A stretch of 62,980 bases of DNA from Acidobacteriaceae bacterium (GTDB lineage: Bacteria; Acidobacteriota; Terriglobia; Terriglobales; Acidobacteriaceae), in assembly GCA_030041515.1 (NCBI GenBank), contig JASHNS010000071.1, forward strand, positions 1 to 62,980, written 5' to 3'. Shown piece by piece: positions 24,448-54,476 of the stretch (position 1 is its first letter; the number at the start of each line of letters is the position of its first letter). The notes under the pieces are model-generated. The model was not told the DNA's origin. It worked only from the letters and a program-made list of their open reading frames with translations, and made no database searches. The position numbers and the translations under genes are program-made.

Positions 24448-24657
24448 TCAAGGCTCTTCCCGGGGACCATGCGGCTTGGAAAGAGTGGCCCAGTAGGCCA
24501 GCAGCCTCGGATCGCAGACGTGATCTTGTTCCGCGCGCTGGATGTCAGCTTCCTCAGGCGAGGTGCAGACGGTAATCAGGCATTCCGCGCAAAGGGAATC
24601 CATCGTACCCTGGGGGGTGGCACGCCGTATAAATGTGGGAGCAGCCGCCAAAGCCAT
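24448..24657 (-). CDS. Small CxxC...HxC protein, paralogue 1
   Basis: A 69-residue protein. The pattern is M-18 residues-GTM, then LCAECLITV, 15 or so residues, AEQDHVCDP. Two better-conserved paralogues are at 28312-28506 and 28912-29109; all three have exactly 19 residues from the chosen ATG through the GTW/GTM position. The Cys, Cys, His, Cys set suggests a zinc knuckle. I chose the ATG at 24657 over one four codons earlier from this alignment. A TATGCT box lies 51 bases upstream. This is the most diverged copy. Function unknown. Confidence 0.6.
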   Translation of the reverse strand: MALAAAPTFIRRATPQGTMDSLCAECLITVCTSPEEADIQRAEQDHVCDPRLLAYWATLSKPHGPREEP

Positions 24658-24707
24658 TGCAGACTCCATCAGTGGCCCGGTGATCCTGGGTAGTTACGGC
24701 GGAGGCC

Positions 24708-24713
24708 AGCATA
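24708..24713 (-). promoter_or_regulatory. Putative -10 box (TATGCT) of paralogue 1
   Basis: On the minus strand GTATGCT lies 51 bases before the start, close to the position of GTATACT before the other two paralogues (48 and 55 bases). No clear -35 was found. Confidence 0.35.
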
Positions 24714-24864
24714 CGCCAGGCAGCGCCGGCGGCGCAACTGTGAAAAATCGATTAACTCCTCAGTTCTAAAGGGTCTACACCCAACGGGCTACGCCTTGGG
24801 CGTGGCGGAGGCGCGAAGGCGCAATGCCGTGGCCCGGCAGCCGGCCAAAGGCAATTCGGGCCCG

Positions 24865-25932
24865 CTATGCCCCGTTCCCGCCGAGGAAAGCCCGGACCAC
24901 GGGGTCCAGCGTCGATGCCTCGCACCCATTCGCCAGATGTCCGCAGTCGCCTTGCAGCACGAACGTTTTGGCTCCGATCAGGTGCGCGAAACGCAGCGCG
25001 GGCTCGGGGAATACCATGTGGTCCTGCGCGGAGGAGACGACGAGAACTTTCGCCTTTACTCGCTGGGCGGCGGCGGCCAGGCTGGCGCCGCGCGCGATGT
25101 CGAGAGGCAGGATCGCTCGCAGCTGGGCGACGAAGTCATTCGCGTCAAAAGGCAGAATGCCTTTCGTTAACCACGTCCGGTACTCGCGTTCGAAGGCAGC
25201 GCGCGAGTGGGTGTGCGCGAAATTCGCAGGGGTGGTCAGGTTGAGCTGCATCGTCAACTCGGCGAGCGGCACGGGCGGCGGCTGCGTGTAGCGGCCGTGG
25301 TCGAAGCCCGGATCCATGGTGACGGCATCGAGCAGCGTATGCAGCAGGAGCAGGTCGCGGCTGCTGAGGCGGGGAGTTCCGACGATCGGTATCGCCTCAT
25401 CCATGAACGACGGGTAATCGGCCATCCACTCGAAGGTTTGTATGCCGCCCATGGAAATGCCCATGACAGCGTGGACGTGCGTGAGGTGCAGAGTCTCGGT
25501 GGCGAGACGATGCTCGGCGTTCACCATGTCCTGAATGGTGAAAGCCGGAAAGTTTGGGCCATGCTGAGCCGTGGAGTTGGAGGGTGAGGAAGAGACGCCG
25601 TCGCCCAGCGCATCAATTCCGACAATGAAATATTTGGCCGGGTCGACGAGCTTGTTGGCTCCGACCGCAAACGCAAGCTGGGCGCTGTTGCCGGAGAACC
25701 AGGAAGGGAAGAGGATTGCATTCGAGCGCGCGGGGTTCAGGGTGCCCCAGGTACGATAGCCGATCCGGCAATTCGTAATTTGCTGTCCATTCACAAGTTT
25801 GCAAATGCCGAGGTCGGCAAACTGGAGTTGTCCGTTGGTGGCCGCCGGCTGGGCGGAACACAGAGCCGGGACAAGGGCGAGGACAACTCCGGCAGTGAGA
25901 ATCAAAAGGACGCGCAACCTGGCAATCAACAT
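24865..25932 (-). CDS. Exported alpha/beta hydrolase, MetX (homoserine acetyltransferase)-like
   Basis: A 355-residue protein with a signal peptide (ARLRVLLILTAGVVLALVPALCSA). The fold matches the MetX branch: YRTWGTLNP near residue 60, IDALGDGVSSSPSN, nucleophile Ser160 in MGISMGG, Asp304 in SSAQDHMVFP, His332 in GDCGHL. MetX proper is cytosolic and acetylates homoserine. Export and the absence of methionine genes nearby argue for a different, probably hydrolytic, role in the periplasm. Confidence 0.82.
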   Translation of the reverse strand: MLIARLRVLLILTAGVVLALVPALCSAQPAATNGQLQFADLGICKLVNGQQITNCRIGYRTWGTLNPARSNAILFPSWFSGNSAQLAFAVGANKLVDPAKYFIVGIDALGDGVSSSPSNSTAQHGPNFPAFTIQDMVNAEHRLATETLHLTHVHAVMGISMGGIQTFEWMADYPSFMDEAIPIVGTPRLSSRDLLLLHTLLDAVTMDPGFDHGRYTQPPPVPLAELTMQLNLTTPANFAHTHSRAAFEREYRTWLTKGILPFDANDFVAQLRAILPLDIARGASLAAAAQRVKAKVLVVSSAQDHMVFPEPALRFAHLIGAKTFVLQGDCGHLANGCEASTLDPVVRAFLGGNGA

Positions 25933-25954
25933 AAGAGATGAGTGTAACCCTGTC

Positions 25955-26926
25955 TTACGGCAGGAAGACGAGACGTGCGCCGGTTTTCTCGTCCCAAAGC
26001 TTCTCTATGTCGGGGAGGGGCGCGGTCTGGATGTCGATCCTGAAGGGCTCGCGAAGGGCCTCCTGGAAAAACACAGCCAGCGACGCGAGGATGCGGTCGA
26101 GGGAAACGGAGCCGAAGCCGCTGCCGAGCAGCTCGAGCCCGGAACTGCGCAGCGTGGCAGCGGGGAGAGGAATGCTGGGGCCGGCGGCGGAACCGATCTG
26201 GATGTAACGCAGCCGCCGCGTCTGGTGATCGAGACCTTTCTGCGCGATGGCGTCAAGAAGAACCTCAGCGGGCGGTCCCCACAGGTAGTCGAGAACGATG
26301 TCGATCTTCTGCGTCGCGAGCGCATCGCGGAAGGCTTCCACCAGCGCGGCGCGGTCCTGCGTGAGCGGGATGACGGCGTCGGCGCCCAGCGAGCGAAGCT
26401 CGTCAAGCTTCTGCGGATCGCGGCCGGTGACGACGATACGGGAAGCGCCCCGGCGCCTGCAGATCTGCACCGCGAGCTTGCCGGCCGTGCCCGTGGCTCC
26501 CTGGATGAGAACGCTCTCGCCTGGCTGGAAGCGCGCGCGTTCGGTGAGCGCTGCCCACGAAGACATCGCTGGATTCATCAGCGCGGCCACCGATGCATCG
26601 TCGATGGAAGGATCGATTGCATCGGGGATTCGCAGCGTGAAGGCGCGCGTCGTCAGACTGTGCTCGGCGAGTGATCCATAGGGCGGGTGAGCGGCGCCAA
26701 AGTAGACGCGGGAACCGTCGTTGAGGGTGCCGACGCCGTCGATGCCCGGGATCAGGGGCAACTGGCCGGTGCTGCCGTAATGTTTTCCCGACGCGAACGC
26801 ACGAACGATGGGATGAAGAGCAGCCGCGGTGACACGGACCTGCAATTCATCATCCCCCGGCGCCGGTGCTGCAAAATCTTCGTAACGCGGAGGCCGATCG
26901 AATGCATGAACCACGGCGGCTTTCAT
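25955..26926 (-). CDS. Zinc-independent MDR-family quinone/enone oxidoreductase
   Basis: A 323-residue medium-chain reductase. The N-terminal GroES-like part (MKAAVVHAFDRPPRYEDF) precedes a Rossmann domain with LIQGATGTAGKLAVQICRRRGA and VVTGRDPQKLDELRSLGADAVI. The catalytic zinc ligands of alcohol dehydrogenases are not seen, which fits the NADPH:quinone reductase branch. The ATG at 26926 is supported by GGAGG five bases upstream; an upstream in-frame start would add 45 atypical residues. The gene diverges from the lactate dehydrogenase-like gene. Confidence 0.87.
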   Translation of the reverse strand: MKAAVVHAFDRPPRYEDFAAPAPGDDELQVRVTAAALHPIVRAFASGKHYGSTGQLPLIPGIDGVGTLNDGSRVYFGAAHPPYGSLAEHSLTTRAFTLRIPDAIDPSIDDASVAALMNPAMSSWAALTERARFQPGESVLIQGATGTAGKLAVQICRRRGASRIVVTGRDPQKLDELRSLGADAVIPLTQDRAALVEAFRDALATQKIDIVLDYLWGPPAEVLLDAIAQKGLDHQTRRLRYIQIGSAAGPSIPLPAATLRSSGLELLGSGFGSVSLDRILASLAVFFQEALREPFRIDIQTAPLPDIEKLWDEKTGARLVFLP

Positions 26927-27119
26927 GGAATCCTCCAGAGCTGGCGCTGCAGATGTGGAACAAGGGCCTCGGAAGAATACGGTGAACAGTTCAGGGTCCG
27001 GCGCGCCGGACCTGACCTGGGGAAAGAAACCTGGCCGCGATGGGGACCCGGCTATTCCCATTGGACAACAGTGCGGAGTTCGGTGGAACTGGATAAAATT
27101 TCGAAGACACTAACAACCC

Positions 27120-28295
27120 ATGCCCAATCGCCGGCTGAATTCATCGTCCATCGTCAATATCGAGGATCTCCGCCGTCTTGCGGAGCGAAGAGTGCCGAGG
27201 TCGGTGTTTGACTATCTCGACGGAGGTGCGGCCGCGGAAGTGACGCTCGGGGAAAATTGCCGTGCCTTTCGCGACGTGAAGTTTCGTCCCCGCAGCGGCG
27301 TGGCGGCGTATGGCGCAAAGACGAGCGTGCGGGTGCTCGGCCATGAAATCAGCTTTCCCGCGATCCTCGCCCCGGTGAGTTACATCCGCCTGATGCACCC
27401 GGATGGGGAAGCGGGGGTCGCGCGCGCAGCCGGAGAGGCGGGTACGATCTACACCTTGCCGACGATCTCCGGGCACAAGCTGGAGGCGGTGAAGGCCGCC
27501 GCGAAAGGGCCGCTGTGGTACCAGCTGTATCTGCTGGGCGGGCGGGAAGCGGCCGAGGGGGCTATCGATCGGGCACGGCGCGCGGGCTACTCCGCGCTGG
27601 TGCTCACGCTGGATACTCCGCTGGCGGGCAACCGCGAGCGCGACCCGCGCAATGGCATGAAGGAACTGCTGGGGCCGGCGTTGCTGCCCAAGGCACGATT
27701 TCTTCCCAATATCCTCGCGCATCCTCGCTGGCTGGCGGCGTTCCTGCTGGATGGCGGAGTTCCCAGGCTGGAGAATGTAGTGCTGCCGGGCAAAGGCCCG
27801 ATGGAGATGACAGATGTGGGGTCGGCCCTGGCGCACGCCGGGGCCAGCTGGGAGGATCTGCGCTGGATCCGGGAGTTGTGGCCGGGACCGATTGTGGCCA
27901 AGGGCATCCTGACCGGCGACGATGCGCGGCGCGCCGTGGATGAAGGCTCAGCCGCGGTGGTCGTATCGAACCACGGCGGTCGGCAGCTGGACTGCGTTTC
28001 CGCAGGGCTGCACGCGCTGCCGGAGGTGGTGAAGGCGGTTGGAGATCAGGTGGAAGTTCTGATGGACGGTGGGGTGCGGCGGGGCAGCGATATCGCCAAG
28101 GCGATTTGCCGGGGCGCGCGAGCGGTGCTGATTGGGCGGGCGTACGGGTATGGACTGGCCGCTGCGGGAGAAGCCGGTGTGACGAGGGCGATCCAGATCC
28201 TGAAGAGCGACCTCGATCTGACGTTGACGTTGCTCGGGTGTCCCTCGTTGGATGCGCTGGACGAAAGCTACCTGGGATCGGCGCAGCGGGGGTAA
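27120..28295 (+). CDS. FMN-dependent alpha-hydroxyacid dehydrogenase (L-lactate dehydrogenase/oxidase-like)
   Basis: A 391-residue TIM-barrel flavoprotein: FDYLDGGAAAEVTLGEN, FPAILAPVSYIRLMHPDGE, TLDTPLAGNRERD, catalytic His285 in SNHGGRQLD, and the FMN phosphate site MDGGVRRGSD and GRAYGYGL. The family oxidises L-lactate, glycolate or mandelate to the 2-oxoacid. The region RFLPNILAHPRWLAAFLLDGG resembles the LldD membrane-association segment. Exact substrate unresolved. Confidence 0.88.
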   Translation: MPNRRLNSSSIVNIEDLRRLAERRVPRSVFDYLDGGAAAEVTLGENCRAFRDVKFRPRSGVAAYGAKTSVRVLGHEISFPAILAPVSYIRLMHPDGEAGVARAAGEAGTIYTLPTISGHKLEAVKAAAKGPLWYQLYLLGGREAAEGAIDRARRAGYSALVLTLDTPLAGNRERDPRNGMKELLGPALLPKARFLPNILAHPRWLAAFLLDGGVPRLENVVLPGKGPMEMTDVGSALAHAGASWEDLRWIRELWPGPIVAKGILTGDDARRAVDEGSAAVVVSNHGGRQLDCVSAGLHALPEVVKAVGDQVEVLMDGGVRRGSDIAKAICRGARAVLIGRAYGYGLAAAGEAGVTRAIQILKSDLDLTLTLLGCPSLDALDESYLGSAQRG

Positions 28296-28311
28296 GGCGG
28301 AGGCTGCGAGC

Positions 28312-28506
28312 CTACCTGGAAATGTGTTTTTGCCGCAAACGCGCCAGCGTGGCGGGGTCGCAGACGTGCACAGCTTCTGCCTGCGCGAGCGCATTCGGGT
28401 CGCGGACGTCGCAGGCAACGGTGCGCAGACAGCGGATGCAGAAAGAGGCCCATGTTCCGTCTGGAAATTGCGTGCGGTAAAAATGCATTTCAGAGGTGAA
28501 CGACAT
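28312..28506 (-). CDS. Small CxxC...HxC protein, paralogue 2
   Basis: 64 residues: FPDGTWASFCIRCLRTV, then 17 residues, AVHVCDPATLARLRQK. It is about half identical to paralogue 3 at 28912-29109. Cys-x2-Cys and His-x-Cys suggest metal binding; no signal peptide or membrane segment. The ATG at 28506 aligns with that of the paralogues. A GTATACT box lies 48 bases upstream on the same strand. It converges with the dehydrogenase gene with only 16 bases between stops. Confidence 0.75.
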   Translation of the reverse strand: MSFTSEMHFYRTQFPDGTWASFCIRCLRTVACDVRDPNALAQAEAVHVCDPATLARLRQKHISR

Positions 28507-28553
28507 GCTGCGAGGCCCCAGCAAAGGCGGCAATTCGGCTACCGGAGACCTGA

Positions 28554-28559
28554 GTATAC
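28554..28559 (-). promoter_or_regulatory. Putative -10 box (GTATACT) of paralogue 2
   Basis: Read on the minus strand as GGGTATACTCA, identical over these 11 bases to the element before paralogue 3 apart from flanks. It lies 48 bases before the start. Confidence 0.5.
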
Positions 28560-28699
28560 CCGCCGAAGCCGCGAGAACCGTGGGTCGGCAGCCCCGCGGG
28601 CGGCGAGGCGTGATTTGGCGTTGACGCAGAACCAGGGGATCAGGCTGGGAGTGGCGGGACACGATCGCAGCCCTGGAGGGCAGCCTCCGCAAAGCGAAA

Positions 28700-28738
28700 G
28701 CGCCCGCCGCTTCCCTCTCCCCGGGGAACGGCGGGCGC
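28700..28738. other. Strong GC-rich hairpin
   Basis: GCGCCCGCCG (28700-28709) pairs with CGGCGGGCGC (28729-28738). After a one-base bulge TTCCC pairs with GGGAA, giving 15 pairs around an 8-base loop. There is no T-run on either side. It may be the core of a small RNA, or a terminator of the paralogue 3 transcript without a classic tail. Confidence 0.55.
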
Positions 28739-28911
28739 ACAGCAGGCGCACCGGTTGATGCGTTGAGTGGAGGATCGCAGGAAAGGGTGGGCCAGGCAAT
28801 GGACCGTTCGAGGGAAGGCCGTAGCGCGAAGAGGGGAGGCGCCCGCGGCGGGCGGCGGACTGGCTGGCCCAGGGTTCCAGGGGGGCAACGGAGGGAGCGC
28901 CGGCTGCGGAG

Positions 28912-29109
28912 TTACTGCGCGGGATTGCGCTTCTTCTGGATACGCACTGCGGTGGCGGGATCGCAGGTATGTGCGGCCTCAGCCTCTCCCAGAAGGTTCC
29001 AATCCGTCAGATCGGAGATGACCGTGCGCAGGCATCGCAGGCAGATCGAGACCCAGGTGCCGTCAGGGTGCTGCCGGTGATAAAACATTCCGTCCCGAGA
29101 AAATGGCAT
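28912..29109 (-). CDS. Small CxxC...HxC protein, paralogue 3
   Basis: 65 residues: MFYHRQHPDGTWVSICLRCL, RTVISDLTDWNLLGEAEAAH, then TCDPATAVRIQKK. It shares the FxxxxPDGTW-x-S-x-C-x2-CLRTV core and the AE-x2-H-x-CDPAT block with paralogue 2. Cytosolic and basic at the C-terminus. It has its own GTATACT box 55 bases upstream, so it is probably transcribed on its own. No known family recognised. Confidence 0.75.
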   Translation of the reverse strand: MPFSRDGMFYHRQHPDGTWVSICLRCLRTVISDLTDWNLLGEAEAAHTCDPATAVRIQKKRNPAQ

Positions 29110-29163
29110 GTTGCCTGGGCCTCAACATCCTCAAGAATAATGTGACTACGAAAAGCACATTGA

Positions 29164-29169
29164 GTATAC
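29164..29169 (-). promoter_or_regulatory. Putative -10 box (GTATACT) of paralogue 3
   Basis: On the minus strand GGGTATACTCA, 55 bases before the ATG. A good -35 at standard spacing was not seen; the extended GGG context may compensate. Confidence 0.5.
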
Positions 29170-29275
29170 CCAGAAAAAGGCAGTGCAAACGGTCGTGGCG
29201 CGAGTTCGGGGATTTCCCCATGAAATCTTGGCTCACAGAGGCCCGCTGTCCGGCGCTGCGGCGGTTCTGCCTTCT

Positions 29276-29575
29276 TTATCCCCTGACCGCGCTCCAGGGC
29301 CGCTGAGGAAGGTGCCTGGGAGCCCGTTCGGCGGGTTGAGGCCGCAACCGGCGGGCAATGTCCACCCACCCGGACAGCGGGACGTTATGGTGCGAAACGT
29401 GTTCAATTCGCTCCGTCAGGCCTCGAATTCCGGCAGTGAGGCTGTCCGCATAGCCCCGCTGCAACTCGAGGAGGAGGTTCTCCGCGTCCATGGCCATCCT
29501 GCGAATCTCCAGTGGGTCAACATGTCCAGCCGAACGCTCAATTTCCAGCAATTTTGCCATCAGTGCAGCAGCCAT
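29276..29575 (-). CDS. Hypothetical helical protein (99 residues)
   Basis: Residues 6-60 read as amphipathic helices (MAKLLEIERSAGHVDPLEIR, MAMDAENLLLELQRGYADSL), followed by a Pro/Arg-rich tail. Composition and third-base bias look coding. It lies upstream of and co-directional with the small CxxC proteins. I do not recognise a family. The long plus-strand frame over the same region reads through the LOG gene on the wrong strand and is less likely. Confidence 0.45.
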   Translation of the reverse strand: MAAALMAKLLEIERSAGHVDPLEIRRMAMDAENLLLELQRGYADSLTAGIRGLTERIEHVSHHNVPLSGWVDIARRLRPQPAERAPRHLPQRPWSAVRG

Positions 29576-54373: not shown

Positions 54374-54470
54374 AGCCTCGGCTGAGCTGCGTGGGCGGGA
54401 TGCATTTCCCCGGTATCCGGATGCCAACCTGCGCCGGGTTTTCTCTGGGGATGCGCCCGCGCCACCACGG

Positions 54471-54476
54471 TATACT
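54471..54476 (+). promoter_or_regulatory. Putative -10 box (TATACT) of ispH, close to the start codon
   Basis: TATACT ends eight bases before the GTG at 54484, so transcription would begin at or next to the start codon. No -35 at standard spacing was seen. Confidence 0.4.

Follow-up and report, generated by a model that had tools for sequence, protein, structure and literature searches.

A family of small CxxC...HxC proteins, likely to bind zinc, represented by three paralogous genes in an acidobacterial genome

What are the three small, related proteins encoded on the minus strand of a 62,980-nucleotide stretch of DNA from Acidobacteriaceae bacterium (contig JASHNS010000071.1; hereafter the window), and what might they do? 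An initial annotation, made from the sequence without database searches, proposed that three open reading frames between positions 24448 and 29169 are real genes of no named family, that their Cys-Cys-His-Cys set suggests a small zinc-binding regulator or adaptor, and that a GTAT(A/G)CT box precedes each of them. The three frames and their boxes lie where that annotation placed them, and we confirm that they are paralogous genes of 64-69 codons.

24448..24657, minus strand: copy 1, small CxxC...HxC gene, 69 amino acids; ATG at 24657, alternative in-frame ATG at 24669; matches the profile built from copies 1-3 at E 6.9e-34
28312..28506, minus strand: copy 2, small CxxC...HxC gene, 64 amino acids; orthologue in the congener genome G149
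28912..29109, minus strand: copy 3, small CxxC...HxC gene, 65 amino acids; orthologue in G149; protein modelled with AlphaFold2
24708..24714, minus strand: GTATGCT box, probable -10 promoter element of copy 1, 50 bases before the ATG
28553..28559, minus strand: GTATACT box, probable -10 promoter element of copy 2, 46 bases before the ATG; kept at the G149 orthologue
29163..29169, minus strand: GTATACT box, probable -10 promoter element of copy 3, 53 bases before the ATG

The explanation that we prefer, at a probability of about 0.45, is that these proteins are structural-zinc fingers that serve as docking adaptors and are made from single-gene promoters. They would be one-domain, probably intracellular proteins of ~65 residues. 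The N-terminal beta-hairpin (consensus FxHRxNxDGTxxSI) would be followed by a CxxC knuckle, then by a third strand and by a short helix with HxC at its end, and a single structural metal ion, most probably zinc, would hold these elements together through C23, C26, H47 and C49 (copy 3 numbering). Contacts to another protein would come from the hairpin and from the helix, in which the acidic E44 is almost invariant, and each small gene would be transcribed from its own housekeeping-type promoter, with the GTAT(A/G)CT box as the -10 element. In five related genomes, the finger heads a predicted four-helix membrane protein, which may present the same docking surface at the membrane. Within this scheme, we infer the identity of the metal, the docking role of hairpin and helix, the promoter activity and the cell compartment.

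An alignment of the three proteins has 70 columns and 18 invariant residues. The four putative ligands are invariant, as initially proposed, with the spacing C-x2-C-x20-H-x-C in copies 2 and 3 and C-x2-C-x19-H-x-C in copy 1, which is one residue shorter than copy 3 within the ligand-numbered region. Also common to all three are F9, P15, G17, T18, S21, L27, T29, V30, A42-E43 and D49-P50 (numbering of copy 1, the first row). Two details of the motif first described need correction: F-x4-P is F-x5-P, and the spacer between TV and AE has 11-12 residues rather than 12-18. The constant distance from the ATG to GTW or GTM holds, with W or M as residue 19 in all three proteins if copy 1 starts at 24657. 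This downstream start is favored because GGAG lies 6 nucleotides 5' of that ATG. The pattern that defines the family (CxxC, E-x2-H-x-C and an N-terminal DG(T/S) hairpin) is found in copies 1-3, with QGT in copy 1 where the others have DGT, and in a fourth copy from the same genome (G000:C90:1304-1465), which the profile of copies 1-3 detects at E 2.2e-14.

Short open reading frames can be spurious, with a motif that arose by chance or as a relic of another coding frame, and copy 2 does sit within a long open frame. This explanation has a negligible probability and is already refuted by the distribution of homologues and by the pattern of substitution, the two checks that had been proposed at the outset. 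Of 150 genomes sampled from the taxonomic family (the window's own genome included), 34 contain a homologue, and a 34-row profile matches at least 79 of 200 genomes of the order; the latter represent 20 of 57 genera, and all listed matches belong to a single taxonomic family, f1, in a sample whose share of genomes outside f1 was not shown. Among 297 genomes drawn across the phylum, at least 16 match, 15 of them in f1; the sole match elsewhere is weak (E 3.1e-4) and carries an internal stop. Counts of genomes in the order and phylum surveys, and in the surveys of 250 and 247 genomes discussed later, are lower bounds, as at most 36, 24, 12 and 24 first-look candidates per genome, respectively, were scored. 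Within the genus, a profile search at E up to 0.01 gives matches in 11 of 12 genomes, some of them to a sister family described below.

Synonymous change far exceeds non-synonymous change between orthologues. Copy 3 and its G149 orthologue differ by 22 synonymous (Sd) and 9 non-synonymous (Nd) changes over 61 codons, corresponding to a ratio of non-synonymous to synonymous rates (dN/dS) of 0.08; for copy 2 the ratio is 0.06, with dS near saturation. Copies within the genome are more diverged, with a proportion of non-synonymous differences (pN) of 0.25-0.31 in three pairs. Copies 2 and 3 are neighbors both in the window genome and in the congener, and the duplication that produced them is therefore older than the split between the two species.

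For conservation across the family, we used two alignments, A2 and A3, that (like several of the homologue lists) were selected by a pattern demanding all four ligands and in which identical cores were counted once; invariance of the ligands in them is a consequence of that selection. A3 (48 rows) omits the proteins L036 and L050 and contains L010 and L031 in shortened form. Loci missed by the pattern were read separately: L034 and L053 have all four ligands, and L052 is broken and looks spurious. More informative are positions that the pattern did not demand. Position 44 is E or D in 48 of 48 rows, and G17 is kept in 43 of them; among other hairpin residues, S21 is kept in 37 and R12 in 33. 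The tails vary among family members. For the 48 members, the median net charge is 0 (range, -5 to +5) and the median isoelectric point 6.8.

The AlphaFold2 model of copy 3, built with the 48-row alignment, has a predicted local distance difference test score (pLDDT) of 77.7 overall, with block means of 84-87 over residues 11-50. It places strands at residues 9-13, 19-23 and 29-34, a helix at 37-46 followed by HxC, and a second helix at 51-61. The resulting order, beta-beta-[CxxC]-beta-helix-[HxC], would have the putative ligands bracket the third strand and first helix in a finger-like manner. A Foldseek search with this model returned no significant match (best E, 0.71). From motif and model together, zinc binding by the family is likely. 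AlphaFold2 reportedly does not correctly distinguish sites of this kind that bind metal from those that do not (PMC11241148).

A metal site could itself be the function, in which case the proteins would be metal buffers or thiol redox switches whose Cys3-His site senses or stores zinc or oxidants. Multiple copies per genome, variable tails and a common core formed by the site would suit such a role. However, a simple buffer would have no need of the hairpin residues, which are kept too (G17 and S21), and no zinc-uptake family was found among ten neighboring proteins or among the 25 of 32 families listed for 56 neighbors of multicopy loci. We regard this explanation as unlikely.

The initial statement that the proteins belong to no named family stands: searches of Pfam, NCBIfam, PHROG, PADLOC and the PDB gave no assignment. 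Copies 1 and 2 have no Pfam match and copy 3 only a sub-cutoff match to DUF7685 (E 0.16); none of the three matches NCBIfam. When 34 members were compared with Pfam at E up to 1, DUF7685 was the sole family matched by more than one member (9 of 34; best E, 0.002), the weak similarity covering a CxxC-F stretch. We rejected DUF7685 (PF24734) as the home family: a window protein scores 12.3-13.1 bits against a cutoff of 27, and the only above-cutoff protein seen (L094) differs from the family described here in having two CxxC pairs and no HxC. The window's genome has no DUF7685 match at E up to 0.01. Over the 48 members, PHROGs, PADLOC and NCBIfam gave scattered weak matches only (best E, 0.012, 0.038 and 0.023, respectively), and no match in a profile search of the PDB was better than E 0.28. 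Small zinc ribbons of bacteria, YacG among them, likewise have ~65 residues and one zinc, with four-Cys ligand sets; no such family is among the Pfam or NCBIfam matches. Nothing among the matches listed in a search of open-licence papers was recognized as this CxxC...HxC family. The family is thus new to the libraries searched and of a known general kind.

Two other known groups offer comparisons. The Ros/MucR proteins are bacterial fingers with a CxxC and a His ligand further on; Ros is a C2H2 DNA-binding protein with ligands C79, C82, H92 and H97 (PMC9779718). Its spacing is C-x2-C-x9-H-x4-H, whereas the window proteins have a C2HC set in which 19-20 residues separate CxxC from His, and they belong to a near-neutral family; the Ros/MucR Pfam family is absent from the matches of the three window proteins (E up to 10) and of the 34 members (E up to 1). 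The C(P)XCG micro-proteins of Haloferax and Halobacterium, such as HVO_2753 and HVO_0758, resemble the family in having fewer than 70 residues, many members per genome and predicted zinc sites, and are mostly of unknown function (PMC11241148). They differ in being archaeal and in having two C(P)XCG pairs (four Cys), whereas here one CxxC without CG is combined with HxC and an N-terminal hairpin, in one bacterial family.

These comparisons bear on whether the proteins are small nucleic acid-binding regulators, in the manner of Ros/MucR or other single-finger DNA or RNA binders. The finger-like strand-helix layout, the CxxC, the His near the end of the helix and the hairpin Arg present in most rows (R12) are in keeping with this possibility, as are weak, sub-threshold matches to S14, a ribosomal zinc protein that binds RNA (E 0.49 by PDB profile; one NCBIfam member match at E 0.051); a small Halobacterium C(P)XCG protein is reported to affect transcription (PMC11241148). 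We nonetheless consider it rather doubtful, and favor protein docking over DNA binding because of the near-neutral charge, the absence of a Ros/MucR match with its different ligand spacing, and the fusions to membrane domains described next, which would ill suit a DNA binder. Of the two roles first suggested, therefore, adaptor fits better, with some support from those fusions, and regulator has no direct support from family matches, net charge or a partner in the neighborhood. The earlier interpretation as a whole is partly supported.

Three loci in different genera encode proteins of 192-200 residues that begin with the finger and contain hydrophobic helices. At E up to 1e-10, a profile of these three proteins matches at least 6 of 250 genomes, and one of the matches is confined to the finger part. 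In all, there are six fused proteins from five genomes and four genera, and two of these genomes belong to the window's genus.

L116:934-1533, L113:929-1504, L036:1066-1641, L124:143-694, L125:172-723, L127:1507-2091: fused finger-membrane proteins

CxxC and HxC are kept in all six, and the membrane part has conserved residues of its own. The fused finger matches the free family by profile (E 7.4e-18), and one fused protein is among the 34 rows of the free family. A model of a fused protein shows the same strand-helix layout in its finger and predicts helices at 84-109, 115-135, 138-157 and 163-199, at low confidence (pLDDT 60.7; predicted template modeling score, 0.29). Three fused proteins scanned against Pfam gave no match at E up to 1.

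A sister family comprises ten proteins from eight genomes of the genus, with a common CxxC...E-x2-H-x-C core, another N-terminus (MNPSVKTTH in 6 of 10) and a C-terminal P[FY]N, which formed part of the pattern used to collect them. A profile comparison relates it to the main family over 30 columns (94.9% probability, E 4.7e-8). Among 247 genomes of the phylum, at least 3 match the sister family, one match being a main-family member. Both the fusion of the finger to a predicted four-helix membrane domain and the sister family ending in P[FY]N are new in this analysis.

L145:1483-1692 and nine more (A7); own-genome copy G000:C48:5318-5527: sister-family members

By analogy with soluble and membrane-bound adaptors of other systems, many soluble and a few membrane-anchored fingers with one docking surface might form a lineage-specific signaling set, in which soluble copies would compete with or relay from the membrane ones and the P[FY]N family would be a second branch; we consider this improbable. 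Small zinc-finger proteins of bacteria are easily missed by annotation, and no library searched names this family. Since it occurs commonly within one family of soil bacteria, is under purifying selection where tested and is sometimes attached to a membrane domain, it provides a defined target for learning what such micro-proteins do.

How are these genes expressed? DNA similarity between copy 3 and its G149 orthologue extends from the gene only as far as position 29170, where the box has its outer edge. Within the genus, 9 of 14 distinct hairpin-bearing copies have TA[TC][AG]CT at 115-129 nucleotides before their first Cys codon, compared with 54 of 16,705 background 15-nucleotide windows, where the offset was chosen after seeing the data and the copies share ancestry. 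The 14 do not include four genus copies that are weaker or fused and have no box (L143, L144, L147 and L150); with these, the count is 9 of 18. The fixed position of the box exceeds chance in the genus. In another count, the box is at this offset in 6 of 6 genus copies and in 1 of 44 others (L036). We rejected a family-specific operator on account of that last proportion and of the occurrence of the octamer GGTATACT before unrelated genes, one of which lies in the window.

54469..54476, plus strand: comparison site outside the family, GGTATACT, 7 nucleotides before the ispH GTG (54484)

The protein encoded downstream of this site is LYTB/IspH (E 4.1e-94). Another octamer site lies 29 nucleotides before a tRNA-Gly gene (L106:1501-1508). 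Because the same octamer precedes these two genes, the GTAT(A/G)CT box is best read, judging from sequence, as a -10 promoter element of the ordinary kind (TATACT/TATGCT) at a conserved distance from the start. Its place directly before tRNA-Gly and ispH suggests a -10 element for the genus, one that can be tested; with the GTG 7 nucleotides after the box, the ispH mRNA would be leaderless or nearly so.

The frequency of the box gives a different picture. GTATRCT occurs 4 times in the window, with 3.13 expected and thus no excess over chance; GGTATACT occurs 3 times in the window with 0.16 expected and 15 times in the whole genome (4.77 Mb), with no excess over the 14 occurrences of the reversed pattern. 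Of these 15, two are at family copies in the window, one precedes tRNA-Gly and one ispH; six lie 2-95 nucleotides before an open frame of at least 60 codons, and the remaining five are not followed by one. A frame of at least 100 codons on one strand also encloses many of the 15. Among permutations of the octamer, 447 of 1680 are as common or commoner, so that GGTATACT does not stand out. Given this result and that of a k-mer scan described below, we do not claim genome-wide enrichment.

Several observations weigh against zinc-held docking adaptors made from single-gene promoters. At the limit used, the proteins are missing from the majority of sampled genomes (116 of 150 in the taxonomic family and 121 of 200 in the order), and two weak homologues lack part of the site (CxxS in L051, no HxC in L061). 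Zinc was bound by only nine of 14 Haloferax proteins in which zinc fingers had been predicted, the other five failing to bind it (PMC11241148). Membrane fusion is rare (5 of 250 genomes, a lower bound). No -35 element common to the window species and the congener was seen, and TATACT was not enriched in a k-mer scan of 103 upstream regions taken from 188 kb of the genome (0 versus 0.4 expected), a result owed in part to a poor automatic choice of starts. Finally, no conserved operon or partner was found in the five loci looked at, where neighbors differ between genera.

At those five loci, the neighbors include RraA-like and NT5C proteins, glucokinase and TPR proteins, a peptidase M1 and a glycine transporter, the last common only to the two g32 genomes. 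Near multicopy loci, 56 neighboring proteins include 7 that match Response_reg. We rejected a response-regulator link after mapping receivers in two genomes (E up to 1e-6; 69 and 76 receivers): by eye, 4 of 22 listed copies (23 reported) lie within ~2.5 kb of a receiver, three of them in one cluster. One locus, L082 (G474:C1:5845000-5860000), has three family copies amid several response-regulator receivers, an arrangement that is not general.

The neighborhoods also bear on whether this small gene could be accessory or selfish, spreading and multiplying in genomic islands, for example, in conflict with phages or other elements. Presence is patchy, with 1-14 matches per positive genome in the order survey (lower bounds), tandem sets included; at locus L080, four copies lie within ~1.1 kb. 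The 56 neighbors further include a TrwC relaxase, an AbiEi and a TIR domain, one each. Such a role is quite unlikely, as the window copies lie amid ordinary metabolic enzyme genes and the 28312/28912 pair is kept in the congener. PADLOC yields one weak match in 48 members (SIR2, E 0.038), and tblastn searches with copy 3 as the only query found no match at E up to 0.01 in 72,556 records of plasmids, nor at E up to 0.1 in 50,697 of phages, at a sensitivity that is low for so short a protein.

Two further observations concern individual loci. At L088:3014-3286, one open frame contains two CxxC...HxC cores; the first, which has no hairpin, may be a copy that has decayed or been fused. In the window, copy 3 adjoins a 99-codon open reading frame on the minus strand (29276-29575) with no Pfam match, part of which (29457-29563) is 77.6% identical in the congener, where it adjoins the same gene pair.

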